Shown piece after piece: positions 3,782 to 47,081 of a stretch of 48,342 nucleotides of DNA. Every line of letters begins with the position of its first letter. Within the stretch, counting starts at the first letter, position 1. Below the pieces are notes generated by a model, which was given only the letters and a program-made list of their open reading frames with translations, did no database searches and had not been told where the DNA came from. This stretch comes from Desulfocapsa sp. (GTDB taxonomy: Bacteria > Desulfobacterota > Desulfobulbia > Desulfobulbales > Desulfocapsaceae). Made by a program: the position numbers and the translations under genes. The DNA lies in NCBI GenBank assembly GCA_030145625.1, contig JAQYVF010000030.1:1-48342 (forward strand). The letters run 5' to 3'.

Positions 3782-3839
3782 TGCTCATTTCTCATCAAAA
3801 TAAACAGTGAAGAGGGTAAGCACAGCCTTTCTTGCAGGA

Positions 3840-4320: not shown

Positions 4321-5223
4321 ATGCGATTGGAAAAGGAATCTTATGCAAGGATAATTGAGAATCTACATGATGGCTTGTATTTTGTAGACAAAAACAGGGT
4401 CATTCTCTATTGGAATAAGGCTGCTGAACAGATTTCCGGTTTTCTAGCCAGCGAGGTTGTTGGGAAATCCTGTTCTGATAATATAATTACTCACGTTGAT
4501 AGTGAAGGCAATAGCCTTTGCAATGGGATGTGTCCTCTTGCAGCATCAATATCTGATGGAGTGTCTCGTGAAGCTGAAGTGTATATGCACCACAAGGATG
4601 GTCATAGAATTCCTGTTTCTGTCCGTGTCAGCACGTTAACCGATGAAGATGGTAATGTTATCGGCGGCATAGAATTGTTTGCAGATATTAGTAACCAGAG
4701 AACCAACGAATTGAGAGTAAAAGAGCTTGAGAAGTTGGCTCTTCTTGACAACCTGACTCAGTTGGCAAACAGAAATTATATCGATCGAGAAATCAAAATC
4801 AAATTTGAAGAGAGAAAACGTTTTAATCTCCCTTTTGGTGTTCTGTTCATAGATATTGATCATTTTAAGAAATTTAATGACCAGTATGGGCATGTTTTGG
4901 GTGATGATGTCCTGAAATTTGTGGCAAATACTTTTGTTGCTAATGCCAGGCCTTTTGATCTGTATGGTCGTTGGGGAGGTGAAGAGTTTATTGGGATCAT
5001 ACCGAATATAACTGACGGTGATCTCGAAAACCTGGGAAACAGAATGCGGAATCTTGTAAAAAAATCATATATAATTCATAACAATAAAAAGCTGCAGGTT
5101 ACAGTTTCTGTTGGAGCGACGATCGCCATGGAAAATGATACCCTGGAAAGTCTGATGAAAAGAGTTGATAAGCTTTTATATCAAAGTAAGGCAGCGGGGA
5201 GAGATTGTCTGACTATGGGGTGA
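4321..5223 (+). CDS. PAS-GGDEF diguanylate cyclase
   Basis: The 300-residue protein has an N-terminal PAS domain (about residues 5-125, starting YARIIENLHDGLYFVD) and a C-terminal GGDEF domain (about 135-298). The active-site loop reads RWGGEEF, a catalytically competent GGEEF form. An inhibitory I-site RPFD lies five residues before it. The protein should make cyclic di-GMP from two GTP under control of a PAS-sensed signal. No membrane segment is seen, so it is cytoplasmic. The ATG at 4321 has GAGGAAG at good spacing, which is why the in-frame GTG at 4306 is not used. The gene converges on the patatin gene, with 23 bases between them. Confidence 0.93.
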   Translation: MRLEKESYARIIENLHDGLYFVDKNRVILYWNKAAEQISGFLASEVVGKSCSDNIITHVDSEGNSLCNGMCPLAASISDGVSREAEVYMHHKDGHRIPVSVRVSTLTDEDGNVIGGIELFADISNQRTNELRVKELEKLALLDNLTQLANRNYIDREIKIKFEERKRFNLPFGVLFIDIDHFKKFNDQYGHVLGDDVLKFVANTFVANARPFDLYGRWGGEEFIGIIPNITDGDLENLGNRMRNLVKKSYIIHNNKKLQVTVSVGATIAMENDTLESLMKRVDKLLYQSKAAGRDCLTMG

Positions 5224-5246
5224 ACAGTCACAGTGACCGTTTAGAT

Positions 5247-6068
5247 TCAGCCGAGAACAGCCGCCGCTTCTTCATATCCCTTTGCTATGATCGGTTCGAA
5301 CTTGTCAAAATCATAGAGATTGAATTCAGCCAGTTCCGGTTGCAGGGAGACAATGTTTTGTTGCTGAGCACAGGCTGTTCGTGTCTGATTTTGCACCATT
5401 AGATAGAAACTGCGCTCGTACATGTCTATGATTTCTGCCGGACGTTCATACCACGACGAATCTTCCGGTTGGTACAGCCCGTTGGCACGGGGAGACATGA
5501 CATCAACGGCAATGATGGGTTTGCCGGGGTCTGATACCTGTTGCACCGGCAGGTTTGCGCAGAGAAAACCGTCAACATAGGATGTGTCTTCCAGGGGGAC
5601 CGGTGGAAACAGGACAGGAATGGACATGGAGCAGGATACGGCTTCGTGGAGCAGGATTGTGTCCTCGGCATTAAAAACACGAATCCGGCCATCATTAAAA
5701 TCCGTGGCTATAATTTTCAATGGAATGTTTGTGTCCCCCATGTGCTGTTCTGCAAACAGGCTTGAGAAAACAGCGTGTATCTTCTTGGAGTCAAATAATG
5801 CCGGGTGGGAGAGTGAGGGCCTTAGCCAGCGGCTCAGACTTGAGAATTCCTTGATATGTTTTGTTATCTCATCTGGTTGGAAGCCGACAGCACAGGCTGC
5901 GCCTATCATCGCTCCCATGCTGGTGCCGATGATTTCGTCTGGTAGTAGCCCCTTTTCAAAGAGATAAGAGAGAACGCCAACGTGCGCATATCCTCGTGCT
6001 GCGCCACCGGAAAGGACCAGAGTGAATCCTTGTTGCAGCTTGCTATGGTCTGTTGTGTGATTGTTCAT
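5247..6068 (-). CDS. Patatin-like phospholipase
   Basis: The 273-residue protein carries the patatin catalytic dyad. The nucleophile elbow is GTSMG at residues 48-52 (Ser50), the oxyanion-hole loop is GGAARG at 21-26, and the catalytic aspartate lies in VDGF (Asp166). The length fits the bacterial RssA/YlbK group. It should hydrolyse acyl esters of lipids, but the substrate is unknown. No signal peptide is present. Its ATG overlaps the stop of the upstream RACo-like gene by four bases (6065-6068), so translation is probably coupled. The pairing with a corrinoid-activator-like protein is unexplained. Confidence 0.92.
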   Translation of the reverse strand: MNNHTTDHSKLQQGFTLVLSGGAARGYAHVGVLSYLFEKGLLPDEIIGTSMGAMIGAACAVGFQPDEITKHIKEFSSLSRWLRPSLSHPALFDSKKIHAVFSSLFAEQHMGDTNIPLKIIATDFNDGRIRVFNAEDTILLHEAVSCSMSIPVLFPPVPLEDTSYVDGFLCANLPVQQVSDPGKPIIAVDVMSPRANGLYQPEDSSWYERPAEIIDMYERSFYLMVQNQTRTACAQQQNIVSLQPELAEFNLYDFDKFEPIIAKGYEEAAAVLG

Positions 6069-8071
6069 GGAATGGTTTTGTCCGGTTCCATAACGGCACC
6101 TTCGCGAATGTTCCTGCGCTGCTCGACCTTAGGGAAGAGGCTGAGATCGGTGTGCGGAAGAAAGATGGAGGCCACGTATTGATCTTTGAAGCTTGGGACT
6201 TCGGAGAGCTCGAAGCTGGTCATCTTGCGCACTACCTGTACCACATCCTTGCGGATATGGTTGGAGAGTTCACTCATCCAGGCACCCATGAGGGAGCCGT
6301 TGCCCACATAGAGAACCTTGTCTGGATCTACTTCCGGGAGCAGGCCCACAGTCATGGCGCTGTCGAGATCGATAAAGGAGCCGAAACCGCCGGCCAGGAT
6401 GATCTGTTCCAGGTCGTTTACCTGCAGTCCTACCTGCTCAAGCAGGGTAGTGATTCCTGCAAAAATGGCACCTTTTGCCCGGATAAAGTTATTGATGTCT
6501 ACCTCGTTGATGACGATGTCGTGATCGGCCGCACATTCATCTTTCCAGGCCAACACGTATTCCCTGCCGTTTCGTCCTTCCCGGATGCGGGGATTGTCAA
6601 TGGCATTGAATTTTCCGCTCTGGTTCAGCACTCTGTGTTCAAAAAGAGTGGCCACGAGAATGAGAAGACCTGATCCGCAGATACCCAGAGCCGGTTTTTC
6701 ACCCACGGTGACATTCATTGGTTCCAGAGTCTCCGGGTTGATGCTGAAGTCACTGATGGCTCCTTCCACCGCCCGCATGCCGTGGGTGATGCCGCCGCCC
6801 TCAAAGGCAGGGCCTGCCGAGCAGGCGGCGCAGGCGAGCCACTCCTTGTTTCCAATAACGATCTCGGCATTGGTGCCCACGTCGATGAAGAGGGTGAGGA
6901 GTTCAGTGCGGTACATGCCCGATCCCATCACTCCGGCCACGATATCACCGCCCACGTAACTTGAGATTGCAGGATAGAGCAGGGCCACACAGTGGTGGGG
7001 CAGCGTGAGACCTAAGTCTTCTGCTCGCATGGGTGGGAAAAAGGTGGAGACCGGCACATAGGGCGAACGCCGGATGTTGTCCGGCTCCAGCTGCAGAAGC
7101 AGATGGGTCATGGTGGTGTTGCCGGCAATGGTGATGGAGTTGATCTCGTCCCGAGTAATGGGGCCGTGGCTGGAATTGGGCGGTAGCGGAGCTGTTTGCA
7201 GCAGTTTGGTGATGATCTCGTTCATGGCATCTCTCACCAGTTCATACATCATTGCCAGGCCTTTGGGCTTTTCGGCATGGATGATCCTGGCAATTACATC
7301 CTCGCCATAACTCATCTGGGGATTGTAGCAGGAATCTTTTGCCAGGATCTTTCCACTGTTGAGATCGATAAGTACCCCGTAAACGGTGGTAGTGCCGATG
7401 TCAAAGGCCAGGCCGAAATTACGGTGAGTCCAGCGGCCCGGTTGGATATTGAGGAGGTGGCTTTTGGACTTATCATTCACTGGCAGCTCAATGGTCACTG
7501 TGACCAGAAAATCATTTTCCCTGAGTGCCCGCCTGATTTTTCTCAGCACCGTGAGTCCGGTAACCAGCCGGTGCCTGTCCATCTGGTCTGCCAAGCCCTG
7601 GATAAGACGACCTACGTCAGCCCGGTTGTCGTGGACATCCGGTCTGGACAGTTCCACGCAGACCTTTTCCACCGGTGGATAAAAGAGCCCTTCTTTTTTG
7701 AGGTCTTCTATGTCAAAGACATGCATACGCGCATGGTGCCGGGGCGGGATGTCAGTGCTGAGGCCGCCTTTTTGCCGTCCGGATTCCTCGGGGATACGTA
7801 CGGTGATGTCTGCATGGATTTCGGCAATACAGGCCTGTCGATATCCGCGTGCATACTCTTCTGCAGAGAGCTTTTCGCTGTTCCCCCCTTGTAGCTCTCC
7901 TTCTTCCAGGAGAACTCGGCATTTGCCGCATACACCGGCACCGCCGCAAGAGGCGTTGATGTGCAGACCGGCTTTTCTGGCTGCCTTGATCAGGCTGCTT
8001 CCGGCCTTGACTCGTATGGTTCGGTTTGCCGGAAGAAAAGTGATTGTATATTTTTGTTGAGTATTGCTCAT
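6065..8071 (-). CDS. RACo-like ASKHA ATPase with 2Fe-2S domain
   Basis: The 668-residue protein starts with a plant-type 2Fe-2S ferredoxin domain with cysteines at 42, 48, 51 and 81 (SCGGAGVCGKC, then QACIAEI). A linker region follows, then a large ASKHA ATPase part (DUF4445) with the phosphate-loop-like FDIGTTTVYGVLIDL near residue 225 and further Gly-rich motifs (AGNTTM, GTNAEIVIG, GGFGSFID). This is the layout of the RACo family, which reductively activates corrinoid proteins of methyltransferase systems at the cost of ATP. No corrinoid protein or methyltransferase lies in the window, so the target is unknown. It is the first gene of a two-gene operon with the patatin gene. Confidence 0.9.
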   Translation of the reverse strand: MSNTQQKYTITFLPANRTIRVKAGSSLIKAARKAGLHINASCGGAGVCGKCRVLLEEGELQGGNSEKLSAEEYARGYRQACIAEIHADITVRIPEESGRQKGGLSTDIPPRHHARMHVFDIEDLKKEGLFYPPVEKVCVELSRPDVHDNRADVGRLIQGLADQMDRHRLVTGLTVLRKIRRALRENDFLVTVTIELPVNDKSKSHLLNIQPGRWTHRNFGLAFDIGTTTVYGVLIDLNSGKILAKDSCYNPQMSYGEDVIARIIHAEKPKGLAMMYELVRDAMNEIITKLLQTAPLPPNSSHGPITRDEINSITIAGNTTMTHLLLQLEPDNIRRSPYVPVSTFFPPMRAEDLGLTLPHHCVALLYPAISSYVGGDIVAGVMGSGMYRTELLTLFIDVGTNAEIVIGNKEWLACAACSAGPAFEGGGITHGMRAVEGAISDFSINPETLEPMNVTVGEKPALGICGSGLLILVATLFEHRVLNQSGKFNAIDNPRIREGRNGREYVLAWKDECAADHDIVINEVDINNFIRAKGAIFAGITTLLEQVGLQVNDLEQIILAGGFGSFIDLDSAMTVGLLPEVDPDKVLYVGNGSLMGAWMSELSNHIRKDVVQVVRKMTSFELSEVPSFKDQYVASIFLPHTDLSLFPKVEQRRNIREGAVMEPDKTIP

Positions 8072-8344
8072 TCAGGCCTCGTTAAAAATGATGGCTGTCT
8101 ATGGTGTGTATTGCCTGTGTTGCGGGATTTTGCTTTTGCTGGAGCAGGTTTGTAGCCTGCTCCTCAATGTTTCTCGCAAAGTTTGATTTATAATGAGTTG
8201 GTGTGTTGACATGGGATCTTGTAATAAACAAAAGGTTCAATCTACAAGATTGAACCAGCATCGAGCATTATGAGGAAGATTTAACCGGTACGGACAGGGA
8301 GGGCCAACAAAACGACCCTAACCCGAAATCATACAGCGTCAACC
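8072..8344. other. Intergenic between two minus-strand operons
   Basis: This stretch holds the formate dehydrogenase operon terminator (8223-8256) and a second hairpin, 8141-8148 with 8156-8163 (arm GGAGCAGG), in the probable leader of the RACo-like gene. The second hairpin has no T-run, so it is not an obvious terminator. No coding frame is supported. Confidence 0.55.
8223..8256 (-). terminator. Intrinsic terminator of the formate dehydrogenase operon
   Basis: A 10-bp perfect stem (8234-8243 with 8247-8256, arm GGTTCAATCT) has a three-base loop. Read on the minus strand it is followed by TTTTGTTTATT. It lies about 90 bases past the last stop codon of the operon and separates it from the RACo-like gene. 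Confidence 0.75.
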
Positions 8345-9178
8345 TCACCCCAACTCCATCACATCCATGGTTTTCAATTGAGCAAGACTGAAGACCGGGC
8401 CGTCTATGCAGACCAGTTTCCCGTCCAGATGACAGTGGCCGCAAATTCCCATTCCACACTTCATGTGACGTTCCAGGGTGGTAATGATTGCTTCGTCTGT
8501 ACATCCCATGGCAGAGAGGCGGGCAATGACAAAGCGGATCATGATTGGTGGTCCGCAGACCAGGGCCGTTGTCTGCTCTGTCACGGTGCAGCCGTCCAGG
8601 AGATCTGTCACCAGTCCCACTGTTCCCTGCCATTTTTCATCTGCAATGTCCACGCTCAGCCTGCAGTCGATACCCTGCTCCTGCCATTTCTTGATTGCCT
8701 CCTGGAAGGCGATGTCGGACGGTGTCCTGCTGCCGTAGAGCAGGGTCATGTCCTGTGCTGCTTCTTCCTCCAGTTCTTGTTGAAAGAGGCAGAAATCAAT
8801 GACGCCTTTGAGCGGGGCAAGGCCAATGCCGCCGGCGACAAAGAGGAGGCTGCGGCCACTGAAATTTTCCACGGGAAAGGCTTTGCCAAAGGGGCCGCGA
8901 ATTCCAACCTGGGCACCGGGCTGCATTTTGTGGATGGCAGTGGTCAGCTCCCCTGCCTTGCGGATTGACAGATCAATCAGGGGCAGGGCGGTGGGGGACG
9001 AGGAGATAGAGATGGCTGCCTCGCCGCAGTGGGGAGCGGAGAGCATGAGAAACTGGCCAGGGAGAAAGGTGAAGGGACGCGTTTTGTCCAGAAGTTCCAG
9101 GCGAATGGTATGGATCTGTTCGTTTTCGACGATGAGTTCTCGGATCACGGCACGTTCCGGAATAAAATTCTCTTTCAT
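8345..9178 (-). CDS. FAD/NAD(P)-binding electron-transfer subunit, sulfhydrogenase gamma type
   Basis: The 277-residue protein has a ferredoxin-reductase-like FAD domain (FLPGQFLML and ISISSSP, near residues 38-62), an NAD(P)-binding part (LLFVAGGIGLAPL; LVCGPPIM) and a C-terminal iron-sulfur cysteine cluster (MKCGMGICGHCHLDGKLVC). This is the layout of the gamma subunit of sulfhydrogenase (HydG/ShyC) and of AsrB. It should exchange electrons between Fe-S centres and NAD(P). The ATG at 9178 has GGAGG upstream and overlaps the stop of the preceding gene by four bases. The longer open frame reaching 9268 is only the overlap with that gene. As the last gene of the operon it probably supplies the pyridine-nucleotide site of the formate dehydrogenase complex. 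Confidence 0.88.
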   Translation of the reverse strand: MKENFIPERAVIRELIVENEQIHTIRLELLDKTRPFTFLPGQFLMLSAPHCGEAAISISSSPTALPLIDLSIRKAGELTTAIHKMQPGAQVGIRGPFGKAFPVENFSGRSLLFVAGGIGLAPLKGVIDFCLFQQELEEEAAQDMTLLYGSRTPSDIAFQEAIKKWQEQGIDCRLSVDIADEKWQGTVGLVTDLLDGCTVTEQTTALVCGPPIMIRFVIARLSAMGCTDEAIITTLERHMKCGMGICGHCHLDGKLVCIDGPVFSLAQLKTMDVMELG

Positions 9179-10224
9179 GGGACCTCCGCAGCAGTGATCA
9201 GGTGAATAAAGGTGGTAATGTCTACCCCGCCGAAACAGATGTCGACACAGCGGCCGCATCCGGTACATGAGACCTTTCCGTGCAGGGTGAGATCATCTTT
9301 GAGTTTGTGGAGGAAACGTCGTTTGAGGGCGTGCTGACGACGATCTACGGGGTTGTGGCCACCGGCCATCCTGGTAAACCCACTGCTGGTGCAGGCATCC
9401 CAGCTTCGAAGCCTCAGTCCCTGGGTTTTGTTTAAGGGCATGTCGTCCACCGAAAAACAGGTACAGGTGGGACAGACATAGGCACAGCCTCCGCAGTCGT
9501 AACAGCGGCGGGAGAGGGCCTCCCATATTGTTTCGGGGACCGGATGTTGCTGCAGTCGGCGGCAGGCATGGGCCACCTGCACATTCCTGGTGAATTTCCC
9601 TCGGGATTCTAAAAAGAGCTGATAACGAATCTTTCGGTCTTTTTCACCAACTTCTCTGAAAAAATATCCCCATCTCTCCAGGATGTCTGCGCCCTTTCTC
9701 CGTCCGGCAGAAACAAAATAGCAGTCACCCAGATCGATGAGTTGTAAATCGTAGCCATATTCCAGGTAGGGGCCGCTCTCTGTGGCTTCACAAAAACAGT
9801 TGGGGAAGGGGTTGTTGCAGCCCAGGGTGATGATCAGAGACTGGTTGCGGCGTGCATAGTAACTGCTGTCCCTTGTCGGCTTGGAAAAGATGAGGTCCGT
9901 GTAGAGGACAGCGGTCAGGTCGCAGGAACGTACTCCGAAGTAGATTGTAGCCTGTTCTTTCTCCGGGGGGGTAAATGTGTACTCCTCTTTGTCGATAGTG
10001 TACTGGGCCAGGGTTTCCTGCTGAGGCAGGAGAAATGGTTTGAGGGAGGACTGGGGCTGGCTGTCAAGATCGATTACAGTGGTATCAAGGTCGGAGATTT
10101 CTGTAAAGAAGGTGTCGCCATATCCGTTTTTCACCGGTGCAATGAGCCTGGCCTCTTTTTTCAGCTTGCGCAGCAGGGGAATGAGGTTGTCCTTGGCCAG
10201 GATCAGTTCTTTGAGATCAATCAT
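9175..10224 (-). CDS. 4Fe-4S electron-transfer subunit, sulfhydrogenase beta type
   Basis: The 349-residue protein has two C-terminal 4Fe-4S motifs: CYDCGGCAYVCPTC, and CTGCGRCVDIC close to the end. It also has the conserved Cys-rich patch GCNNPFPNCFC in the first half, typical of the beta subunit of sulfhydrogenase (HydB/ShyB) and of AsrA. It should relay electrons between the formate dehydrogenase catalytic subunit and the FAD subunit encoded next. Its ATG (10224) overlaps the catalytic-subunit stop by eight bases, and its stop overlaps the next ATG by four. This tight coupling suggests fixed stoichiometry. No hydrogenase catalytic subunits are present, so a hydrogenase role is not supported here. 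Confidence 0.9.
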   Translation of the reverse strand: MIDLKELILAKDNLIPLLRKLKKEARLIAPVKNGYGDTFFTEISDLDTTVIDLDSQPQSSLKPFLLPQQETLAQYTIDKEEYTFTPPEKEQATIYFGVRSCDLTAVLYTDLIFSKPTRDSSYYARRNQSLIITLGCNNPFPNCFCEATESGPYLEYGYDLQLIDLGDCYFVSAGRRKGADILERWGYFFREVGEKDRKIRYQLFLESRGKFTRNVQVAHACRRLQQHPVPETIWEALSRRCYDCGGCAYVCPTCTCFSVDDMPLNKTQGLRLRSWDACTSSGFTRMAGGHNPVDRRQHALKRRFLHKLKDDLTLHGKVSCTGCGRCVDICFGGVDITTFIHLITAAEVP

Positions 10225-12262
10225 TTTTTACCTTCCTCAAATTGACCGAGCAGACCTTGAACTCGGGACATTTTGATTTCGGGTCCAGGGCATCGATGGT
10301 CAGGCGGTTGATCGGCACCTCCCAGAAGTGAAAAGAGGTGAAAACTGTGCCGGGCTGCACCCGGTCGGTGATATGGGCCTTGACCCGGACCTTGCCGCGT
10401 CTGGAACTGAGTTCCACCAGTTCCCCTTCACGTAGTCCCAGCTTGTCACAGTCTGCCTGGTTTATTTCCAGGAGCGCCTCCGGATATTCGCGTACCAGTC
10501 GTCTGGACTGTCGGGTCATGGTTGCGGTGTGGTAATGGTGGTAGGAACCCCTGCCCGTAACCAGAGTGAAGGGATATTTTTTATCCACATGTTCTTTGGG
10601 TTCCTGATGTTCGGTGATGGTGAATTGTCCTTTGCCCCTGGCAAAATAGTACTTGTGGAGAAAGGTGGTGCCCGGGTGGTCGCGGTTCCAGCAGGGCCAC
10701 TGCAGGCCCCAGCTCCCCTCCAGCCTGTCGTAATGCATGCCGCCGTAGATGGGGGTGAGCAGGCTGATCTCTTCCATGATCTCTGCATCTGATTCAAAAT
10801 CCATTCCCGGACACCCCAGTCGTTTGCCCAGTTCCATGATGATCCGACTGTCGGAGCGGCAGTTGCCGATGGGAGCGATGGCCTTGTGGCAGAGTTGAAC
10901 CCGTCGTTCGGAGTTGGTGATGGTGCCACCTTTTTCCGCAAAGGATGCCGCCGGGAAGACAACGTGGGCAAGCCTTGCGGTCTCGGTGAGAAAAATATCG
11001 GAGACAGCGAGAAAATCGAGGTGCTGCAGGGTATCTTGTACCCGCTTGAGGTGCGGGTCGCTGAGCACCGGGTTTTCGCCCATGATGAACATGGCCCGTA
11101 TGGCTCCATCACGCCCGGAGTGAGTCATTTCGGTGAGACTCAAGCCTGGAGTCTTGGGAGGGGCAACACTCCAGGCTGCCCTGAATCGTTCCCGGACTTC
11201 AGGGCTTGTGAGAGCCTGGTAACCTGGCAGGACTGCGGGCAGGGCCGCCATGTCGCAGGCACCCTGAACGTTGTTCTGGCCACGCAGGGGGTCGACGCCG
11301 CCATGTTCTTTTTCCACGTTGCCGGTGAGCATGGCCAGGTTGGCCACGGCCTGGACATTATTTGTGCCGCAGGTATGTTGGGTGACTCCGAGGCAGTAAC
11401 AGATCACGGATTTGCAGCTGCGGGCATAGATGCAGGCCGCCTCGCGTATGGTATGGAGGTCAATTCCGGTGACGGCTGCAATTTCATCAAGGTCCAGGCG
11501 GTGGAGGTAGTCGCGCATGGAGGTGAAATTTTCCGTGCGCATGGAGATGAAGAGATCATCGGCCAAATCTTCGTCGAGGATGATCCGCATCATGGCGTTG
11601 ATGAGAGCAATGTCTGTTCCCGGGCGCAGGGCCAGATGGATATGGGCCTCTCGGGCCAGGTCGGTTTTTCTGGGGTCGATGACGATCAGTTTGGCACCCC
11701 GGTCTACGCCTTTTAAGATATTGCGGGCGATCTGGGGATGGGTTTCGGTGGTGTTGGAGCCGGTGACCAGCAGGACCTCGGCGCCTTCCAGTTCACCTAT
11801 GGAGTTTGTCATGGCCCCGCTGCCAAAACTTGTGGCAAGACCTACCACAGTTGAAGAGTGTCAGAGCCTGGCACAGTGGTCGATGTTGTTGGTCTGCAGG
11901 CCTGCCCTGGCCAGTTTCTGCAGCAGGTAGTTCTCCTCATTGCTGCATTTGGCAGAGGCCAGGAAACCGATGGCATCAGAACCGTGCTGCTCTTGGGTCC
12001 TGCGCAGACCCTTTGCCGTATAGTCCAGGGCTTCATCCCAGCTAGCCGGGCAGAGTTTGCCGTCTCGGCGTATCAGGGGCTCGGTCAGCCGCTTTTGTGA
12101 ATGGATGAATTCATGGAGGTGCCAGCCCTTGGAGCAGAGGTTACCCTGGGAGATGGGATGGTTTTTGCTGGGATAGGACCCAACAACCCTGCCCTGTTTC
12201 ACGCGAAGGTAGACTCCGCAGCCACAGCCGCAGTAGTTGCAGATGGTCATGACATCTTGCAT
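10217..12262 (-). CDS. fdhA: Selenocysteine formate dehydrogenase catalytic subunit
   Basis: One 681-residue molybdopterin (or tungsten) oxidoreductase is read through an in-frame TGA at 11863-11861, taken as selenocysteine 134. The two halves are exactly in frame. The context CARL-Sec-HSSTVVGLA aligns with the active-site block of E. coli FdhF (CARV-Sec-HGPSVAGL), where Sec and the following His are catalytic. The N-terminus has the 4Fe-4S site CNYCGCGCG plus GNLCSKGW. C-terminal molybdopterin-dinucleotide binding blocks are present (VTGRGSYHHYHTATMTRQS). The length is close to FdhF (715). It oxidises formate to CO2 or the reverse. No Tat signal is seen, so it is cytoplasmic. It is the first gene of an operon with the beta- and gamma-type electron carriers. 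Not a pseudogene: both sides of the TGA are intact and a SECIS hairpin follows. Confidence 0.95.
11831..11863 (-). promoter_or_regulatory. Selenocysteine UGA with bacterial SECIS hairpin
   Basis: The TGA (11863-11861) is followed after exactly 11 bases by a 7-bp stem, UGUGGUA with UGCCACA (11849-11843 and 11837-11831, one G-U pair), closing the loop GGUCU. The E. coli fdhF SECIS, as I recall it, has the same GGUCU apical loop, bound by SelB, and the same 11-base spacing. The hairpin lies within the coding sequence, as bacterial SECIS elements do. Confidence 0.93.
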
Positions 12263-38118: not shown

Positions 38119-39387
38119 TTATTGTTGTCCTTGCCCCTCTACAGAGGGGGCAAGGGCGGCAGAGCGTCCAGCCAGCCAGCCGGTTGAAAAGGCTGCCTGG
38201 AGGTTGTAACCCCCGGTATTGCCGTTAAGGTCCAGAATTTCTCCGGCCAGATACAGGCCTGTGAGAATTTTCGATTCCATGGTTCTGGGATCTATCTCTT
38301 GAAGATGTACTCCTCCGGCAGTAATGATAGCTTCTGTAAAGGGACGATGGCTGCTGACCTCCATGCGCAGGTCTTTGAGCCAGTGCAGCAGTCTTTTTCT
38401 TTCTTTTTTTGAGATTTGACCAACCAGTTGTTCTGCCGGGATGTCGGTCTGCTCCAGGCAGAGGGGGACAAGCTGGGCCGGTAGCAGGCCGCGCAGGACC
38501 TGGTCAAAGGATTCCTTGTGGCGTTTTTCAAAGTCCCGAATCAAGCGTGCGTCCATCTTTTGCAGGTCCAGCGCTGGTTTGAGGTCCACTGACAGAACCA
38601 CTTTTTTTCCCTCCCGCAACCCATCCACCACTGCCCCGCTCAGTGTCAGAATAACCGGTCCGCTTACTCCGGTTTTAATAAAATGCATCTCGCCAAAGAG
38701 TTGTTGGCACCGTTTTCCATTAATAACGAGACGCACTTCCACGTTTTTCAGTTCCAGTCCGACAAGTTCAGGGTGAATCCCACCCGTAACTTCCAGAGGC
38801 ACCAGGGCCGGGCGGATGGGGATGGTGCTGTGTCCGGCCGACTCTGCCAGTCTGTATCCGTCACCAGTGGAGCCGGTGGCAGGATAGGAGGCACCGCCTG
38901 TGGACAAGATAACTGCATCACAGCGAATCTCTTTTTTGTTCGTGATCACACCCTGTAATTTGTTGCCATTCATGAGGAGACCCTGCACAGGACTGTTGTC
39001 GCGGATTTCCACCTTCAGCTTGGCTAGCCAGCGAAGAAAGGCCTTGAGGATGTCCGGGGCCTTACCACTTGCAGGAAAGTACCTGCCGCCCCGTTCGAGC
39101 ACGATTTCCAGTCCGTTTTCTTGGAAAAAATCGATGAGTTCAGAAGAGAAGAAGCGGGAAAAAGCCTGGCGTAAAAAACGGCCGTTTTTTCCAAAGTGAT
39201 TGATGAAATCACCTGGTGCAGCACTGTTTGTAATATTGCAGCGCCCTTTGCCGCTGATGCATATTTTACGCCCCGGCCGCTTCATTTTTTCCAGAAGAAT
39301 AACACGGGCACCACATTGAGCGGCTTGACCTGCAGCCATGAGGCCAGCTGCTCCTCCGCCAATGACCACCACTGTTTTCTGTTTCAT
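38119..39387 (-). CDS. BaiN/YhiN-like FAD flavoprotein
   Basis: The 422-residue protein begins with the dinucleotide-binding motif VVVIGGGAAGLMAAGQAA and contains the family block GRKICISGKGRCNITN. Later blocks are AVILSTGGASYPATGSTGDG and LYLAGEILDLNGNTGGYNLQ. This is the HI0933/YhiN group. Members reduce unsaturated substrates with flavin and NAD(P)H in some species, but most are uncharacterised. AAGGAAAG precedes the ATG. It converges with the FKBP gene, six bases between stops. Confidence 0.92.
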   Translation of the reverse strand: MKQKTVVVIGGGAAGLMAAGQAAQCGARVILLEKMKRPGRKICISGKGRCNITNSAAPGDFINHFGKNGRFLRQAFSRFFSSELIDFFQENGLEIVLERGGRYFPASGKAPDILKAFLRWLAKLKVEIRDNSPVQGLLMNGNKLQGVITNKKEIRCDAVILSTGGASYPATGSTGDGYRLAESAGHSTIPIRPALVPLEVTGGIHPELVGLELKNVEVRLVINGKRCQQLFGEMHFIKTGVSGPVILTLSGAVVDGLREGKKVVLSVDLKPALDLQKMDARLIRDFEKRHKESFDQVLRGLLPAQLVPLCLEQTDIPAEQLVGQISKKERKRLLHWLKDLRMEVSSHRPFTEAIITAGGVHLQEIDPRTMESKILTGLYLAGEILDLNGNTGGYNLQAAFSTGWLAGRSAALAPSVEGQGQQ

Positions 39388-40052: not shown

Positions 40053-41267
40053 ATGAATCGATCCTTGGGTGCATTCTGTACCTTCCTGTTCGGGCTCATT
40101 TCTCTGCAAATGGTTTCTCCCTGCCAAGCCTATAATGTAAGTGAGAATCTAAGTATCAACGGCTTCTTGTCTTTTGGATACATCAAAAGCCGCAACAATA
40201 ATTTCCTGGGAGAGTCTTTGGATGGTTCTTTTCAGCTGAACGAATTCGCTCTGACGACCAACTATATTGCAAATGATAATCTGCGTTTTGGCTTTCAGCT
40301 TCTTTCCCGGGATGTGGGAGAAGAAGGAAATAATGATATTCTGATTGACTGGGCGGTGGCCGATTATCGCTGGCAGGACTGGCTTGGAATGCGTCTTGGC
40401 AAGGTGAAGCTCCCCATTGGACTCTACAATCAGGGCCGAGATATTGATTTTTTGAGGCCCATGGCTTTTTTGCCGCAAAGCATCTATGACGAAAATAAGC
40501 GAACTCTTGTCGTTGCCGCTCTTGGCGGCTCCATTTATGGGAATATATCATTCGGAGACAGTGGCGATCTTGACTATCAGGCCTACTATGGAAAGGTAGA
40601 TTTTCGTGAAGATTCAGGGCAGGCACGTGGGATGGAAAAACTGCTGGGCAAAACCGCCATGCAGAAAGGTCTGGGGGAGGTGTATGGCTTTGAAGCTGAC
40701 AACAGGTATGTGTATGGAGGTTCATTGGTGTATGCTCCTCCCCTTGACGGTCTGCGTCTAGGAGCATCCTATTTTACCGGTCAGACAGATTTTGATTTTA
40801 AAATTGGTGCGAAAGACGGGTATGCCAGGGGGACTAATAAAGATTTTGTTGTTCTCTCCATGGAATACTTTCTCCCCGACTGGAAATTGGCAGCAGAGTA
40901 CACTGAGTTTACAGGTGACCGTGAGGTTTTGGGAATAGATATTCCGGACGGCCGTTCCCAAGGGGGCTATGTCCAGCTTTGTTGTCATATCTTTGAACCA
41001 ATTGTGTTGTCTGTACTTTATGATGTTTTTTATGCTGACAAAGATGATCACAATGGCAGTAACTTTGTTGCGAAGGGACAACCCGATTTCCTCGGCTGGC
41101 GAAAGGATGTCGGCCTTGGTTTACGTTGGAATATCAGCGATCAGTGGATTATTAAGGCAGAACATCACTGGTTAAATGGGGCAGCTCTTCAATTACCGAT
41201 ATTTAATCCAGAAGGTGTTGAAGAGGACTGGAGCTATTTTGTTCTGAAAACCTCATTTAATTTTTAG
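40053..41267 (+). CDS. Outer-membrane porin-like protein
   Basis: The 404-residue protein has a signal peptide (SLGAFCTFLFGLISLQMVSP) and an alternating hydrophobic/charged beta-strand pattern throughout. It ends in the aromatic C-terminal residue typical of barrel proteins (VLKTSFNF). It looks like a large trimeric-type porin. The GGAGGG-preceded ATG at 40053 is preferred over the in-frame TTG at 40038. Ten bases separate it from a periplasmic binding-protein-like gene, so substrate delivery is plausible. Substrate is unknown; phosphate-like anions are one guess from the neighbour. Confidence 0.83.
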   Translation: MNRSLGAFCTFLFGLISLQMVSPCQAYNVSENLSINGFLSFGYIKSRNNNFLGESLDGSFQLNEFALTTNYIANDNLRFGFQLLSRDVGEEGNNDILIDWAVADYRWQDWLGMRLGKVKLPIGLYNQGRDIDFLRPMAFLPQSIYDENKRTLVVAALGGSIYGNISFGDSGDLDYQAYYGKVDFREDSGQARGMEKLLGKTAMQKGLGEVYGFEADNRYVYGGSLVYAPPLDGLRLGASYFTGQTDFDFKIGAKDGYARGTNKDFVVLSMEYFLPDWKLAAEYTEFTGDREVLGIDIPDGRSQGGYVQLCCHIFEPIVLSVLYDVFYADKDDHNGSNFVAKGQPDFLGWRKDVGLGLRWNISDQWIIKAEHHWLNGAALQLPIFNPEGVEEDWSYFVLKTSFNF

Positions 41268-41277
41268 GGGTGGGGGA

Positions 41278-41706
41278 ATGAAACTGCTAAAAAGTTTTAT
41301 TGTTCTCTGCTTCCTGCTCATACTTTTTCCTGGAAGGATGGAAGCTGCTGATTTTGTATTAGTGGTGAATAAGAAAAATCCGATTGAGTCCATGAACAGA
41401 TCTGATGTCAAAAAGATCTTTTTAGGGAAGAAATCATTCTGGCCTGATGGAAAGGGGATCGATGTATTTTTGCAGGCCGAAGGTGATATCCATCGCAGCT
41501 TTGTTTATGACATTTTAAACAAATCCCCACGTCAGCTCACATTATACTGGAAGCAAGTACTTTTTTCCGGAATAGGGGTGCCGCCTAAAAAACTTCCGGA
41601 TAACAGATCGGTCAAAGAAGCTGTTGCTTCGAACCCACAGGCCATTGGCTATGTAGATATCCTTCAGCTTGATGAGTCGGTCAAGCAAGTTTATTTAAAC
41701 TTTTAA
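41278..41706 (+). CDS. Small periplasmic PstS-like binding protein
   Basis: The 142-residue protein has a signal peptide (KLLKSFIVLCFLLILFPG) and resembles the short phosphate-ABC-substrate-binding-like family: VNKKNPIESMNRSDVKKIFLGKK, then FVYDILNKSPRQLTLYWKQV, and NPQAIGYVDI near the end. It is about half the length of a true PstS, so it probably represents a single-lobe version. No ABC permease or ATPase is present. GGGGTGGGGG precedes the ATG. It sits between the porin and a HAMP-PAS-GGDEF sensor, so it may present a ligand to the sensor rather than to a transporter. Confidence 0.82.
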   Translation: MKLLKSFIVLCFLLILFPGRMEAADFVLVVNKKNPIESMNRSDVKKIFLGKKSFWPDGKGIDVFLQAEGDIHRSFVYDILNKSPRQLTLYWKQVLFSGIGVPPKKLPDNRSVKEAVASNPQAIGYVDILQLDESVKQVYLNF

Positions 41707-41719
41707 AAGTGAGAATTTT

Positions 41720-43426
41720 GTGCGGTTAATCAACACAATACGCAAGAAAATATGGTTCTGCGTTAATGTGGCCTTTGTTGGCTTCATTGTGGCAACAGGT
41801 TTTACGTTGCATTCGAATCATCAGCAGCAGATCCACCTTACTCATATCCGTGATTTTGATTTTCACTTGGCGATGCGCAGTAACGAGCTGTTGAATCTGT
41901 TCGTCATACAGAAAAATTATTATAAAGAAAGTTTTTTGTTCGGCTCTTCTGATTCGGCAATTAGAGGAAATGCGCTCTGTGAAAAAATAACGACTGAAAT
42001 TGAATCAATTACAAAAATAAAACGGAGTCTTCGTCTCCTTCCTGTCGACAGGGCCGAGAGTCTCAGGGAGCTGCAAAAGAAGTATACTGACTATGTGGAA
42101 CAGGCAACAGAGTTGTATCCTCTGCTTGCCCAGGGCAATGATGCTGAAGATCATATTGAAGCACTTCAGCTGCTGGCTGCAGCCCAGAATGAAATCCAGA
42201 GTAATCTTGAATATTTTGCCAAATTCTATCGCCGACATTTCAGTAATAACGTTACTATTTTGATGGACATGAGCAAGAGGAGCAGCAGGTTTCTTGCACT
42301 GTTTTTTGTGCTGTTGCTTGTCACCATGTCCTTGGTAGTGAACTGGGCTGCAAAACGGACTTTGATTACTCCGCTGGCCCATATCAAGGAGGCGGTGCGT
42401 GGGTTTGGACGTGGGCAGCGTAGTTTTCCAGCACTTGAGGTTATGAATGACAAAGATGACATTGGTGAACTGGGAGTGGCTATCATAACCATGACAAAAG
42501 ACCTGGTAAACACCACTGTCTCTAAGGCTTATGTGGATAGTATTCTGCAAAATATGAATGACAGCCTTATTGTCACCTCCAATGATTTCCTCATTTGCAG
42601 TGTCAACCAGGCTACTCTGGATTTACTCGGATATAAAGAGAATGAACTCATTGGGTTGCATATCAATAAGGTTCTCAGTGAGTTTGTTTGTGGGAAGGCA
42701 GAGAGTGCCGTCGACGATATTGATGGAGAGCTGTCTTTTCAATTGTGTAGTAATGCAGGAAACATCTTTCTTACCAGGAGTGGAGATGAAATCCCAATGT
42801 TGCTCTCTGTCTCTCGGCTTAAGGACGGAGACAATGCTGCCCAGGGACTTGTTTATGTTGCCAAGGATATAACTGAACGAAAAAAAGCTGAACAGAAGCT
42901 GGAACAGATGGCTCTCTACGATTTTCTAACCGGTCTGCCCAATCGTATGACTTTTAATGATCGGCTGGAACAGACATTGAAACAAGCGCTTCGTGAAGGA
43001 CAACAGGCAGGTTTGATGTTTCTTGATCTTGATCGCTTCAAAGAAGTTAATGACACCATGGGGCATGATTCTGGTGACGCACTGTTACAAAACGTGGCCA
43101 AATGGCTCAGTAGCTGCGTGCGGGAAAGTGATACTGTGGCGCGACTCGGTGGGGACGAGTTTGCTGTAATACTTGATAAGCTACACGAGCCCCAGGATGC
43201 CGTCATTACTGCTGAACGTATTCTTGACGCATTTGTCGACCCAGTACTCTATGAGGGCAAAGAAATCTTTGCCACTCCCAGCATAGGCATAGCTCTTTAT
43301 CCTTCAGATGCCGGGAGCAGTGTAGATCTTCTTAAAAATGCCGACACGGCCATGTACCAGAGCAAGCAAAATGGTGGCAACAATTACTGTTTTTTTTCCG
43401 GAAGAAATAAGCAGCTCTTACAATAA
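41720..43426 (+). CDS. HAMP-PAS-GGDEF diguanylate cyclase
   Basis: The 568-residue protein starts at GTG 41720 with AAGTGAG upstream. It has a first membrane helix (WFCVNVAFVGFIVATGF), a roughly 160-residue periplasmic helical region, a second helix (FLALFFVLLLVTMSLVV), then HAMP, PAS (LQNMNDSLIVTSNDFLICSV onward) and a C-terminal GGDEF domain. The active site is RLGGDEF and the I-site RESD lies five residues before. It should produce c-di-GMP under control of a periplasmic signal. It is the third gene of the operon with the porin and the binding protein, and no EAL domain is present. Confidence 0.92.
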   Translation: MRLINTIRKKIWFCVNVAFVGFIVATGFTLHSNHQQQIHLTHIRDFDFHLAMRSNELLNLFVIQKNYYKESFLFGSSDSAIRGNALCEKITTEIESITKIKRSLRLLPVDRAESLRELQKKYTDYVEQATELYPLLAQGNDAEDHIEALQLLAAAQNEIQSNLEYFAKFYRRHFSNNVTILMDMSKRSSRFLALFFVLLLVTMSLVVNWAAKRTLITPLAHIKEAVRGFGRGQRSFPALEVMNDKDDIGELGVAIITMTKDLVNTTVSKAYVDSILQNMNDSLIVTSNDFLICSVNQATLDLLGYKENELIGLHINKVLSEFVCGKAESAVDDIDGELSFQLCSNAGNIFLTRSGDEIPMLLSVSRLKDGDNAAQGLVYVAKDITERKKAEQKLEQMALYDFLTGLPNRMTFNDRLEQTLKQALREGQQAGLMFLDLDRFKEVNDTMGHDSGDALLQNVAKWLSSCVRESDTVARLGGDEFAVILDKLHEPQDAVITAERILDAFVDPVLYEGKEIFATPSIGIALYPSDAGSSVDLLKNADTAMYQSKQNGGNNYCFFSGRNKQLLQ

Positions 43427-43439
43427 GCAGAAGTTGTTG

Positions 43440-46400
43440 TCAAAAAGTTACTTTTTCAGCGTCACCAGTTAGACCGGCAAACTCGCTGTGCCAGTTCGCC
43501 CCACCAATGGTTTCAGCAAGGAGTACTGCCATGTGTTGCGGTTGTATGTTGAGGTCCCTGTTGCGGCCAAGACCTGAGAGGCAGGAGGGGCAGTTTGTGG
43601 CCAGGATTACCTCATTGTTATCCGGTTGGGCTTTTTTTATGGATTCTCGTTTTCGTTCACACATGGCATTGGAGATATCTGGTCTGGAGATGGCCAGCGT
43701 CCCTGCCTCGGAACAGCAATTGGGCACGTTTTTCACATCCTCATAGAATCGTCCCAGCAGGTTTGCCCCTTCACCGTCAAAAGAATCGTGGCAGGGAGTA
43801 TGATAGAGCACTGTCTCAGCTCTTTTGCTACTGTTGTACTGCCACCCGGTATGTTCCAGGACAAACTGGGCGACATCATCGATCTCGCAATCAAAAATTT
43901 CACCACATCCCATTTCCTGCAGCGCTTCTCTGCAGGTGCCGCAACTGATCAGAAATGCATCGAATACCAGATGGCCGAGCATGTCCCGAATCTGAGTGAG
44001 AATGATTGTATCCCGCAGTGAGATCTCCCCGGCCATTTTCTTCTTGGCATTGACCTTGGCTGGAAAACCGCAACAGAGAAAAGGTGGCGGCAGGATGACT
44101 CGAACGTTGTTTTTCAGCAGGAGGTAGATTGCCGCCATGGAGATGTCTGCATAGAGTCGTTCCGAACCGCAGCCCGGAAAGTAGAAGACGGTTTTATTTA
44201 CCTCTCCTTCGGGCAGGATTAGTAAGGCTTCATTTTCCGAACAAGGGGGAAGCAGGGAAAAAAGTGTTGTCTCGGATGCCGGCATCATTGGTGATTTCAG
44301 CATATTTAAGGGACGCCACTCGTTTTCCGTGATGACAGGGGGACTCTTTTTAAAGGCCATGCTGCCAAGGCGCTGCAGCGAACTACCCCATTCCATCACG
44401 CCTTTTCGAAACACCTTGTTAAAGGTTTGATTTCGGTTTTGCAGATACATGAGCGAGAGTTTTGTTGCAGGGGCAGTATGTTTGTAACCAAGGTCGCTCA
44501 GGATTTCCCGTTCCAGGATGGACACCTCTGCTGTGTCGATGTCCACAGGGCAGGGGGCGAGACATTTTCCACACATGGTGCAGTGGTCGGCGATTTCCTC
44601 AAGATTCTTGAGTTGATTGAATCGTGGCAGATGCGAGCGTTGCATGTCATAGAGCAAGGCTTCGATTAACGAGCCGATGACCATGTTTTTGTTTCTGGGA
44701 TGAAAGAAAATATTACTCCCGGGAAAGTAGACACAGCAGTCCGGCATGCATTTTCCACAACGGACACAGCGGGAAATTTTTGACGACAGCTCGGCCAGAG
44801 AACCATACTGTAATATCTTGGCTTCCAGTTCGAGGAGGTTAAACGATGGAGTGAAAACTTTTTCAATAATCAAAGGATCGCTGAGCATCCCGGGGTTCAT
44901 GAGCTTGTCGGGATCTACCTTTTGCCTGTAAGTTTTCAGTTCCTCAAATCGTTTTTCTTCCAGAAATTTCATTTTGGTGATACCGATACCATGCTCCCCG
45001 CTGACGACGCCACCAAGTTCCACCGCCTTGGTCATCACGTCTTCGGCGGTCTTGTCAGCCCGTTTCATCATCTCCCGGTCGTTGGAAAATACGGGAATGT
45101 TCACATGGTTATTGCCGTCCCCTGCGTGCATATGGGTGGCAATGATAATCCGTTTCGAGCGGACATCCGTATAGATCTTTTCTATGATGGTACTGACTTT
45201 ATGATACCCGCTGAAGAGTTCCAGTAGATCCGTCATTAATTTCTTGATATGGATTTCATGGCGAACCGACTCTGTGCTACGTAGTCCGAGCTTTTCCAGG
45301 GTCTCCCTGCAGAGTTCATTGGCTTTTGGCATTTTTGCCTCCAGCCAGTCCGGATCCGAAATGGGTTCCGCTGTTTCCAGGTAGGTCATGACCGCATGGA
45401 TGCACTGTTCTTTGTTATAGAGATCTTCTTCAATATTGTATTCATCAACGAAGCGGGAAAATTCGGCAAGGGCCGGCAGAGGGAGAACAATGTCCTCATT
45501 GAGTTTGAATGCATTGGTGCGGGCTGATATCGCTCCCAGGCGTTTTCGATCTCTCCAGAAACGGGCTGCTTCATCGGCATCTTGAGCTGTGAAGAGTTCG
45601 GTGTTTATATAGGGAGTCAGGAGTGTTTCCAGTCTTTGTTTTCCTCGAAGTACCTGTTCCGAGGTGTGTCCCACCATGTCGATGAGGAGAACCGCCTTGG
45701 GATGTTCGCTTCGTGCCGCCTTGAATTTGTACTTGATTGCCCGGATGTATTCTTCGTCAAAATGTTCAAGGGCCATCAGGGCTTCCTCCCCCTGATTGAC
45801 AAACTCTTTAGAGATCTCAACGATTACCTTGCTGGCTTCGTCCATATCGTCACCGTAGAACTCAAGACAAAAGGTGATCTTTTTCTCGAAGGCTTGATAG
45901 AGGACGAATTCTCCGGATGTGATGACGCCGTCGGTACCCTCTTTCTGAAACCCGGGAAGCCCCTTTAATGCCTTATTTGTGATATCTTTCCACAGCCCTT
46001 TCTTGCGGAGATCAGTCCCTGTAAGTTTGATATTATTCAGGACATTCTTTCTGGAATCGATGACCTGAAAATGGAGCAAATCGTCGGGGAGAATCTTGCG
46101 CATGGGGTGGTTGATCCGCTGCACGGTCAGTAGATCCTGGCCTGGCATGGCGATGGAATAGGAGAGGATGTTGTCTATGGCTGTGCCCCAGAGAACAGCT
46201 GTCTTTCCTCCGGCGTTTTCAGCGATATTGCCGCCAATGGTGGAAGCCCAGGCGCTGGTCGGATCGGTGGCAAAGACAAGGCCGTCATGGGTAGCATGTC
46301 CCATGGCATCTGATGTGACAACGCCTGCTTCGACTTTTAAGGTCGGTACTTGGGGCCCTGCTCCAAGATGGGGGAAGTCTTTGTAGGTTATAGGGTGAAT

Positions 46401-47081
46401 TTTGGTCAGCTTTTCAGTGTTAATGATCACGCAGTCCTTGGTGACCGGGACGCTGCCGCCGGTTAATCCGGTTCCTCCTCCACGGGGGATGATTTTTAAT
46501 CCCAGTTCAGCAACGGCTGCCATCAATGGCGGTACCTGTTCTTCGGTGGCAGGGCGCAAGACAGCCAGTGGCAGGAAAAGACGCCAGTCAGTTGCATCTG
46601 TCGCATGGCTGATAAGGGTGAAGGGATCGAAACGGACATTTTCTTTGCCAATGATTGGCGCAAGTTTTTTAACTGTTCGGGCACGCGTGGCTGATATCTT
46701 GGAAATTTCGTTTTTCAATTCTTCAAGGCGATCCCGGCAGAGGTTGACAAGGCGCAGTACTTTGGCGCTGCCCTCTGTTCCAACCCGAACGGTTTTCCCA
46801 GCTTTCTCAATTATGGAGAGGTCCTCTTCGGCTGTTGAAAAAAAATGGTTCCGGCGGGATGAGGAGTCGATGAGTTCCTGATAGAGAAAAGGATTTCGTC
46901 TGAGGATAAAGAGATCACCCATAAAACGCATGACAAGTCGTGCTGATCTGCCGGAGATCCTCTGGCTGCGCAATTCTTCCAAGTCATCCCAGACTTCCGG
47001 GCCAAAGAGCAGGTTGATGATAAGTCTGTCGTCTGCAGATGTGAAATTATAGGGGATCTCGCGATAATTTTTCGTATTCAT
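43440..47081 (-). CDS. FAD/Fe-S D-lactate or glycolate dehydrogenase fusion
   Basis: The 1213-residue fusion comprises: an N-terminal DUF3683-like part (about 1-130); an FAD-binding_4 domain (about 140-310, PRGGGTGLTGGSVPV); an FAD-oxidase C-terminal domain with HMHAGDGNNHVNIPVF and GGVVSGEHGIG; a double 4Fe-4S domain (CVRCGKCMPDC and CTMCGKCLAPC, about 790-860); and a CCG-type heterodisulfide-reductase-like domain (PGCGSERLYADISM; LCCGFPAK; CHDSF; TNCPSCLSGLG). It should oxidise a 2-hydroxyacid such as D-lactate or glycolate and pass electrons through Fe-S clusters to quinone or another carrier. It is larger than separate GlcD/GlcF-type subunits combined. The gene ends close to the convergent GGDEF gene, 13 bases between stops. 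Confidence 0.92.
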   Translation of the reverse strand: MNTKNYREIPYNFTSADDRLIINLLFGPEVWDDLEELRSQRISGRSARLVMRFMGDLFILRRNPFLYQELIDSSSRRNHFFSTAEEDLSIIEKAGKTVRVGTEGSAKVLRLVNLCRDRLEELKNEISKISATRARTVKKLAPIIGKENVRFDPFTLISHATDATDWRLFLPLAVLRPATEEQVPPLMAAVAELGLKIIPRGGGTGLTGGSVPVTKDCVIINTEKLTKIHPITYKDFPHLGAGPQVPTLKVEAGVVTSDAMGHATHDGLVFATDPTSAWASTIGGNIAENAGGKTAVLWGTAIDNILSYSIAMPGQDLLTVQRINHPMRKILPDDLLHFQVIDSRKNVLNNIKLTGTDLRKKGLWKDITNKALKGLPGFQKEGTDGVITSGEFVLYQAFEKKITFCLEFYGDDMDEASKVIVEISKEFVNQGEEALMALEHFDEEYIRAIKYKFKAARSEHPKAVLLIDMVGHTSEQVLRGKQRLETLLTPYINTELFTAQDADEAARFWRDRKRLGAISARTNAFKLNEDIVLPLPALAEFSRFVDEYNIEEDLYNKEQCIHAVMTYLETAEPISDPDWLEAKMPKANELCRETLEKLGLRSTESVRHEIHIKKLMTDLLELFSGYHKVSTIIEKIYTDVRSKRIIIATHMHAGDGNNHVNIPVFSNDREMMKRADKTAEDVMTKAVELGGVVSGEHGIGITKMKFLEEKRFEELKTYRQKVDPDKLMNPGMLSDPLIIEKVFTPSFNLLELEAKILQYGSLAELSSKISRCVRCGKCMPDCCVYFPGSNIFFHPRNKNMVIGSLIEALLYDMQRSHLPRFNQLKNLEEIADHCTMCGKCLAPCPVDIDTAEVSILEREILSDLGYKHTAPATKLSLMYLQNRNQTFNKVFRKGVMEWGSSLQRLGSMAFKKSPPVITENEWRPLNMLKSPMMPASETTLFSLLPPCSENEALLILPEGEVNKTVFYFPGCGSERLYADISMAAIYLLLKNNVRVILPPPFLCCGFPAKVNAKKKMAGEISLRDTIILTQIRDMLGHLVFDAFLISCGTCREALQEMGCGEIFDCEIDDVAQFVLEHTGWQYNSSKRAETVLYHTPCHDSFDGEGANLLGRFYEDVKNVPNCCSEAGTLAISRPDISNAMCERKRESIKKAQPDNNEVILATNCPSCLSGLGRNRDLNIQPQHMAVLLAETIGGANWHSEFAGLTGDAEKVTF

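Follow-up and report, generated by a model that had tools for sequence, protein, structure and literature searches.

A porin, a one-lobed PstS relative and a diguanylate cyclase as a probable envelope-spanning sensory cassette in Desulfocapsa

Gene content of the cassette

The window analysed here is a 48,342-nucleotide stretch of DNA from Desulfocapsa sp. (GenBank assembly GCA_030145625.1, contig JAQYVF010000030.1), and the subject is a trio of genes on its + strand. The first (40053..41267) encodes a porin-like protein of 404 residues, putatively an outer-membrane barrel. The second (41278..41706) encodes a single-lobe PstS-like periplasmic protein of 142 residues, hereafter the half-SBP (half-length substrate-binding protein), and the third (41720..43426, GTG start) a predicted transmembrane diguanylate cyclase of 568 residues. 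A first-pass annotation of this DNA had described three tightly spaced genes without an ATP-binding cassette (ABC) transporter and had read them as a sensing rather than a transport system. The coordinates, the common strand and the gaps of 10 and 13 nucleotides are confirmed, and the adjoining open reading frames (ORFs), inspected by eye, include no recognisable ABC permease or ATPase. That the cassette serves sensing rather than transport is highly likely, and it is reasonably probable that the trio works as one envelope-spanning sensory cassette through the whole chain, docking of the half-SBP included.

The ATG of the porin gene at 40053 is preceded by a GGAGG-type site; a mechanical ORF caller places the start at a TTG 15 nucleotides upstream. 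The N-terminus is signal-like and, as read from the sequence, the C-terminal residue is F, which is also the last residue in 32/32 rows of the porin alignment (A5). Among the relatives gathered in a 68-row alignment (A4, consisting of 63 porin-profile members and five other neighbour genes that were included deliberately), Pfam matches are to Porin_4 (17 rows), OMP_b-brl (12), Porin_O_P (10) and BBP2 (6). Porin_O_P, the family of the OprO/OprP-type phosphate-selective porins, is not matched by the window porin. The signal-like N-terminus, the terminal F (in the position of the aromatic beta-signal of Gram-negative porins) and the families of the relatives agree with the proposed outer-membrane barrel; the window protein itself has no domain match.

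The cyclase matches the Pfam families GGDEF (E = 3.4e-50) and PAS (E = 4.6e-11), with a weak HAMP match that falls under the cut-off (E = 0.01) and transmembrane (TM) segments near residues 11-31 and 189-211. The GGDEF active-site motif is intact (RESD...GGDEF at 468; RESDTVARLGGDEF), from which synthesis of cyclic di-GMP (c-di-GMP) may be inferred. A weak Bestrophin-like match was set aside, as a matter of judgement, as a helical artefact. Residues about 32-189 (41813..42286, + strand) would form a periplasmic helical sensor domain. In the predicted structure (predicted local distance difference test, pLDDT, 81.6; predicted template modelling score, pTM, 0.60), helices span residues 7-74, 77-103, 109-137 and 142-230, and the periplasmic part takes the form of a bundle of four long helices resembling those of NarQ and Vc1313. 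NarQ is the closest fold to the sensor model (E 8.7e-4) and the sole Foldseek hit below 0.001. The ligand-binding domain of Vc1313 follows with a target template modelling score (TM-score) of 0.82 (E 0.02), and LytS-N of the XylFII-LytS complex matches weakly (target TM-score 0.83, E 0.37). Of the HAMP-PAS-GGDEF architecture with a helical periplasmic sensor that had been proposed, the GGDEF and PAS domains, the two TM segments and the helical model stand, but HAMP stays below its cut-off.

On the 5' side of the trio lies a 422-residue ORF on the opposite strand (38119-39387), flavoprotein-like by eye, and on the 3' side a converging 1213-residue ORF (43440-47081) that resembles, also by eye, a flavin adenine dinucleotide/iron-sulfur oxidoreductase. 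The trio thus stands by itself, its flanking genes lying on the other strand or converging. Scans for promoter-like sites (11 against 6.7 in shuffled sequence, standard deviation 2.7) and terminator-like sites (6 against 3.7, standard deviation 1.9) were uninformative, and the haem-binding motif CXXCH occurs in none of the three proteins.

One lobe of PstS without the phosphate loop

Behind a Sec-like signal (residues about 1-24), the half-SBP covers just positions 93-186 of the 267-position Pfam model PBP_like_2, at 24.9 bits and under the curated cut-off of 27. Its NCBIfam score against TIGR02136 (30.5 bits) is far under the cut-off of 206.6, and its sequence profile matches PstS chains in the PDB. 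An AlphaFold model built from a 32-row alignment (pLDDT 95.2, pTM 0.86) finds its best Foldseek matches among PstS proteins, with E down to 8.7e-10 and hits that include 4exl, 4gd5, 1twy, 4lat and 4q8r. The TM-scores of the 11 leading hits are high by query (0.68-0.76) and low by target (0.33-0.40), and the protein therefore corresponds to one lobe of two. The model thus assigns it a PstS fold in a single lobe; by profile coverage and model alike, the second lobe and the hinge are absent from the 142 residues, which bears out the half-length binding protein of the first-pass annotation. No PstC, PstA or PstB partners are recognisable beside the trio.

Phosphate is bound in PstS by an SGT loop in the very lobe to which the half-SBP corresponds. 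The equivalent place is occupied in the window protein by residues 63-75, VFLQAEGDIHRSF (41464..41502, + strand). For comparison, 140 loci with 145 half-SBP genes were fetched, and 20 full-length PstS-type genes served as controls. Within the 12 residues up to an invariant F, SGT is found in 0/145 half-SBPs, as against an R-D/E/K..SGT loop in 17/20 controls (a count that supersedes 2/20, for which the loop of the controls had been truncated in the alignment). At other positions SGT is present in 25/145 half-SBPs, and in 23 of these it lies 22 residues past the invariant F, in an FSG loop. This loop, FSGxGxPP, is conserved in half-SBPs; its first G (91 %) recurs in PstS, which mostly has A in place of the last P (98 %). 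Three residues ahead of the invariant F, H, R, Y or K is present in 134/145. The suggestion that the protein captures an anion in the manner of PstS is accordingly not supported, one lobe, the hinge and the SGT loop being missing. The half-SBP may instead bind another ligand or serve as an adaptor at the porin.

These alternatives correspond to two forms of the best explanation, which carry about equal weight and are each put forward tentatively. It may be that the porin admits a small anion, which the half-SBP binds through new residues before activating the receptor, as in NspS-MbaA or PstS-CtpL. Such a shuttle would suit the PstS fold, the H/R/Y/K residue where PstS has its loop and the Porin_O_P matches among the porin relatives, and it has precedents in PstS-CtpL (PMC4926252) and NspS-MbaA (PMC8967002); the loss of the SGT loop speaks against it, and a single lobe presumably could not close on a ligand unless paired with itself or with another protein. 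It may equally be that the half-SBP carries no ligand and docks where the porin opens into the periplasm, or at another outer-membrane conduit, and reports occupancy or assembly to the receptor. The missing second lobe and SGT loop speak for this, as does the conserved FSGxGxPP loop with its distinctive last P, but the basic residue and the invariant F, close to the former anion site, may equally mark a new ligand site.

Among the controls, three of the 20 full-length PstS-like genes (L163, L164 and L171) also lack the SGT loop. Directly downstream are a methyl-accepting chemotaxis protein (MCP) in L163 and a kinase in L171, so full-length PstS may also have moved into signalling.

Recurrence with interchangeable receptors

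The 145 half-SBPs comprise 61 from the order, 31 from the phylum and, from the class of genome G530, 53 (mostly the best-scoring) out of 129. In the order, the half-SBP profile has matches in 70/242 genomes at E 1e-5, full-length PstS included, and half-SBP rows occur in 42/242. The set of 65 places was kept at E <= 1.7e-10; the 36 rows above this limit, most of which are full-length PstS to judge by their open frames, were excluded; the 61 fetched omit the window's own gene, G002:C64, G095:C28 and G177:C71. The profile has matches in 56/297 genomes of the phylum, again including full-length PstS; 31 of 36 rows at E <= 4.7e-11 were used, four being already in the order set and G412 not having been fetched. 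Matches occur in 74/274 genomes of the class of G530, and 72/274 have at least one half-SBP place once three full-length rows (G623, G707 and G763:C118) are removed; a few of the 129 rows kept have long open frames. Neighbours were counted within chains, defined as genes on the same strand with gaps of <=250 nucleotides and a maximum of four genes per side.

A porin-profile gene is present in the chain of 119/145 half-SBPs (directly adjacent in 118), compared with 0/20 controls. A GGDEF, histidine-kinase or chemoreceptor protein is in the chain of 98/145, compared with 2/20, and both partners are present in 81/145, compared with 0/20. The recurring co-occurrence that the first-pass annotation had named as a check is thus found, well beyond the full-length PstS controls. 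Within 1.5 kilobases (kb) on either strand, 129 half-SBPs have a porin, 109 a receptor and 94 both; the controls have 0, 5 and 0. At background points 4.5 kb off, taken from half-SBP and control loci pooled, a porin is found at 2/114 and a receptor at 20/114. The porin lies upstream of the half-SBP in 86/145 cases, downstream in 28 and on both sides in four, with a median gap of 12 nucleotides (130 genes).

The receptors themselves are varied. In 62 of them (61 of 113 listed, plus the window cyclase), Pfam matches at E <= 0.01 are to HAMP (35), GGDEF (21), EAL (11), HisKA (21) and MCPsignal (20), with the sensor domains dCache_3 (8), dCache_1 (5), 4HB (2) and CHASE8 (1). Because the porin and half-SBP are joined elsewhere to histidine kinases, chemoreceptors and GGDEF-EAL proteins, the input appears to be a reusable module. 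Public annotations provide further examples: a porin, a "phosphate ABC transporter substrate-binding protein" and a converging MCP in Pseudoalteromonas donghaensis; an MCP, a porin and a half-SBP on a Pseudomonas aeruginosa plasmid; and a porin-size hypothetical protein, a half-SBP, and EAL and diguanylate cyclase genes in Caballeronia. The half-SBP and porin of P. xiamenensis have no adjoining receptor, an ATP-binding protein and a sigma-54 regulator lying farther away on the other strand, and an Alteromonas half-SBP stands beside a porin-size hypothetical protein without an annotated receptor; a Halomonas record bears no annotation. On plasmid MRG65-300 of Alteromonas mediterranea (L181), a half-SBP and a porin-size gene are found near the type IV CRISPR (clustered regularly interspaced short palindromic repeats) genes csf1, csf2, csf3 and csf5. 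A Kangiellaceae locus (L019) was dropped as a relative, profile A2 having no match in its genome at E <= 1e-5, and was used solely as the way to a second class.

The association was also approached from the porin side, with a profile grown from one seed over four rounds at E 1e-6; alignment A5 was taken from half-SBP neighbours, and because the profile was trained on these neighbours the test is not blind. In the 242 genomes of the order, with A5 at E 1e-10, 54/61 porin places lie on the same strand and <=2.5 kb from a half-SBP, and 50/65 half-SBPs have a porin place within the same limits. For the class of G530 (274 genomes), porin places of >=100 bits adjoin a half-SBP in 73/80 cases, those of 80-100 bits in 2/3 and those below 80 bits in 8/38. 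The Fisher values (2e-31 for the order, 4e-38 for the class of G530) ignore phylogeny. Six of the seven porin places of the order without a half-SBP, in five loci, were read, and none contains one; one of these five loci is a contig end next to kinase genes. Both porin-profile places of the window genome at E <= 0.01 adjoin a half-SBP.

The second of these places belongs to another trio. Three proteins of the window genome match the half-SBP profile, of which two are half-length and the third is a full-length PstS. The second half-SBP is 36 % identical to that of the window, and its locus encodes, in order, a histidine kinase (593 residues), a sigma-54 response regulator (448), a porin (403), the half-SBP (148) and a GGDEF protein (557). 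The full-length PstS (280 residues) is followed by two multi-TM proteins (285 and 293 residues) and an ATPase-like protein (254 residues), and by gene order and sequence, the names having been read from these, the locus is taken to be a separate Pst operon.

This bears on scavenging or uptake, in which the half-SBP would feed an unlinked ABC importer and the cyclase would be a chance or loosely linked neighbour. The first-pass annotation had named supply of an unlinked ABC transporter as the outcome that would overturn its sensing proposal. The public annotation of half-SBPs as "phosphate ABC transporter substrate-binding protein" would agree with such a role, but permease-like neighbours (multi-TM, 250-340 residues) occur in the chain of 1/145 half-SBPs compared with 13/20 controls, receptors are over-represented nearby, and the Pst operon of the window genome has its own two-lobe PstS. 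A one-lobed protein would in any case be a poor candidate for serving an unlinked importer. Uptake is very improbable, and the earlier view of a sensing system is well supported by a pair that recurs with interchangeable outputs.

It might also be argued that the order of the three genes has simply been inherited and has no significance for function. The gene order is indeed common to close relatives, and the association counts take no account of phylogeny. However, the pair persists while receptor types and gene orders vary, with the porin on either side of the half-SBP, and it is found in another class and on plasmids. Phylogenetic hitch-hiking or chance is thus scarcely credible as an account of the whole pattern.

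The half-SBP family is expanded in some genomes, with 11 places in G634 and eight in G540.

Correlated divergence and exceptional loci

A signalling mechanism for the sensory cassette can be outlined. A dedicated outer-membrane porin, the half-SBP and the inner-membrane diguanylate cyclase would act jointly, with the half-SBP reading, in the periplasm, either a solute from outside the cell or the porin's own state. It would dock on the four-helix bundle of the cyclase, and the signal would run via HAMP and PAS to GGDEF and alter c-di-GMP, presumably the nucleotide concerned, whether upwards or downwards.

The divergence of the three proteins fits contact between their periplasmic parts. Across 23 trios of the order, half-SBP distances correlate by rank with those of the porin (r = 0.865), the sensor domain (0.82) and GGDEF (0.61). 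Given GGDEF, the partial correlation of the half-SBP is 0.78 with the porin and 0.70 with the sensor, and given the sensor, that with GGDEF is 0.19.

Exceptional loci are informative about the partners. In 12/145 cases an NHL-type protein takes the place of the porin directly upstream of the half-SBP (L051, at 1222-9156, and L043, L045, L047, L049, L050, L052, L053, L055, L074, L075 and L076). A decaheme cytochrome (10 CXXCH) precedes the NHL protein in eight of these 12 loci, 11 of the 12 chains continue with GGDEF and/or kinase genes, and L051 has a redoxin/TPR protein farther upstream. In two other relatives (L186:3744-5765 and L187:2731-4434) the half-SBP ends a longer protein, after a single hydrophobic segment near residue 209 (hydropathy over 19 residues 1.61 in L186 and 2.35 in L187) and a long linker of low complexity. 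Pfam matches a DnaJ domain in the L187 fusion and no domain in that of L186, and a porin-profile gene adjoins the fusion in both. A tethered half-SBP beside a porin hints at action at the porin. Locus L067 (167-7814) contains two porin-profile genes, a half-SBP, an SBP_bac_5 protein and a 986-residue fusion of a periplasmic binding-protein domain with a mechanosensitive-channel domain. Together, the NHL loci, the two fusions and L067 suggest that the steady partner of the half-SBP is an outer-membrane or periplasmic conduit and that its second partner is an inner-membrane protein.

Such loci would be readily explained if the half-SBP docks at the porin or another conduit without a ligand. The porin is its commonest partner (129/145 within 500 nucleotides), the tethered half-SBPs adjoin porin-profile genes, and the NHL protein, often with its decaheme cytochrome, substitutes for the porin; against this, the L186 and L187 fusions have no recognised receptor domain. 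A broader version, which is speculative and rather unlikely, is a widespread trans-envelope module in which a half-PstS clamps on a conduit without carrying solute and relays the conduit's state to receptors with swappable outputs. As its conduit the module would use a porin or, in certain operons, an assembly of multihaem cytochrome and NHL protein, and the outputs would be c-di-GMP, phosphorelay or chemotaxis, a generalisation put forward with the same reserve. In the fusions, where the half-SBP follows a membrane-tethered linker, the module would be hard-wired.

Several observations, the lost phosphate loop among them, weigh against the sensory cassette as a single working unit. The window porin has no match in Pfam or NCBIfam at E <= 1, nor does its hydropathy alternation mark it as a barrel, since 400 of 2000 shuffled versions scored as high. 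The NHL substitution means that the porin is not obligatory, and in the class of G530 just 80/129 half-SBPs have a porin match within 2.5 kb on the same strand. No receptor is recognised within 1.5 kb of 36/145 half-SBPs, and receptors are near 5/20 full-length PstS controls too. The window-genome copy that is nearer agrees for all three genes in 17/23 trios, not all, and the correlated divergence can also stem from joint inheritance and from slower change in GGDEF.

Relationship to known binding-protein-dependent receptors

NspS is a two-lobe protein of the PotD type. In polyamine sensing by NspS-MbaA in Vibrio cholerae, this periplasmic binding protein associates with and controls a transmembrane c-di-GMP enzyme (PMC8967002), the kind of pairing proposed for the half-SBP and cyclase of the trio. 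NspS belongs to another SBP family, the half-SBP has one lobe, and no dedicated porin is described in the available text on NspS-MbaA. In phosphate chemotaxis by Pseudomonas aeruginosa, the PstS protein stimulates the transmembrane receptor CtpL (PMC4926252). That PstS is full-length and phosphate-loaded and also serves a transporter; the half-SBP has one lobe, no SGT and no linked transporter. XylFII-LytS, TorT-TorS and LuxP-LuxQ each pair a bilobal binding protein with a transmembrane receptor, on whose sensor domain it docks. These systems differ in their bilobal SBPs and histidine-kinase outputs, and the accessible portion of the source describes no porin partner (PMC6321045).

SBP-dependent receptors are, according to a further account, a general and widespread mechanism that extends to chemoreceptors, kinases and c-di-GMP enzymes (PMC9602780). 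The trio shares with them a linked transmembrane receptor with a periplasmic sensor domain, but its SBP is not bilobal. The principle is thus already known; what is new, as far as seen, is the combination of a one-lobe PstS derivative, a dedicated porin and swappable outputs. No description of the trio was found in the open-licence PubMed Central literature, as represented mostly by titles and abstract openings, nor is it described in the available text of papers on a beta-myrcene receptor (PMC13111069), Geobacter electrode sensing (PMC5585712) and Gallionellaceae (PMC10734462).

Proteins of this small size are common under the annotation "phosphate ABC transporter substrate-binding protein"; at the loci examined the majority have both a porin and a receptor nearby, and they are unlikely to be components of transporters. 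If the sensory cassette is confirmed, this routine annotation would be corrected, many orphan proteins of the GGDEF, kinase and chemoreceptor types would gain an input, and the reading of outer-membrane channel state by bacteria would become testable.

Other features of the window

Two further features lie elsewhere in the window. At 10217-12262 on the - strand, two ORFs merge through an in-frame TGA if this is read as selenocysteine (residue 134, ...HCARLUHSSTVVG..., in the translated stretch 11700-12262). From this motif, the merged protein is presumably formate-dehydrogenase-like. At 3404-3781 on the + strand, a 125-residue ORF consists of degenerate repeats resembling HQGIAKEAVE.

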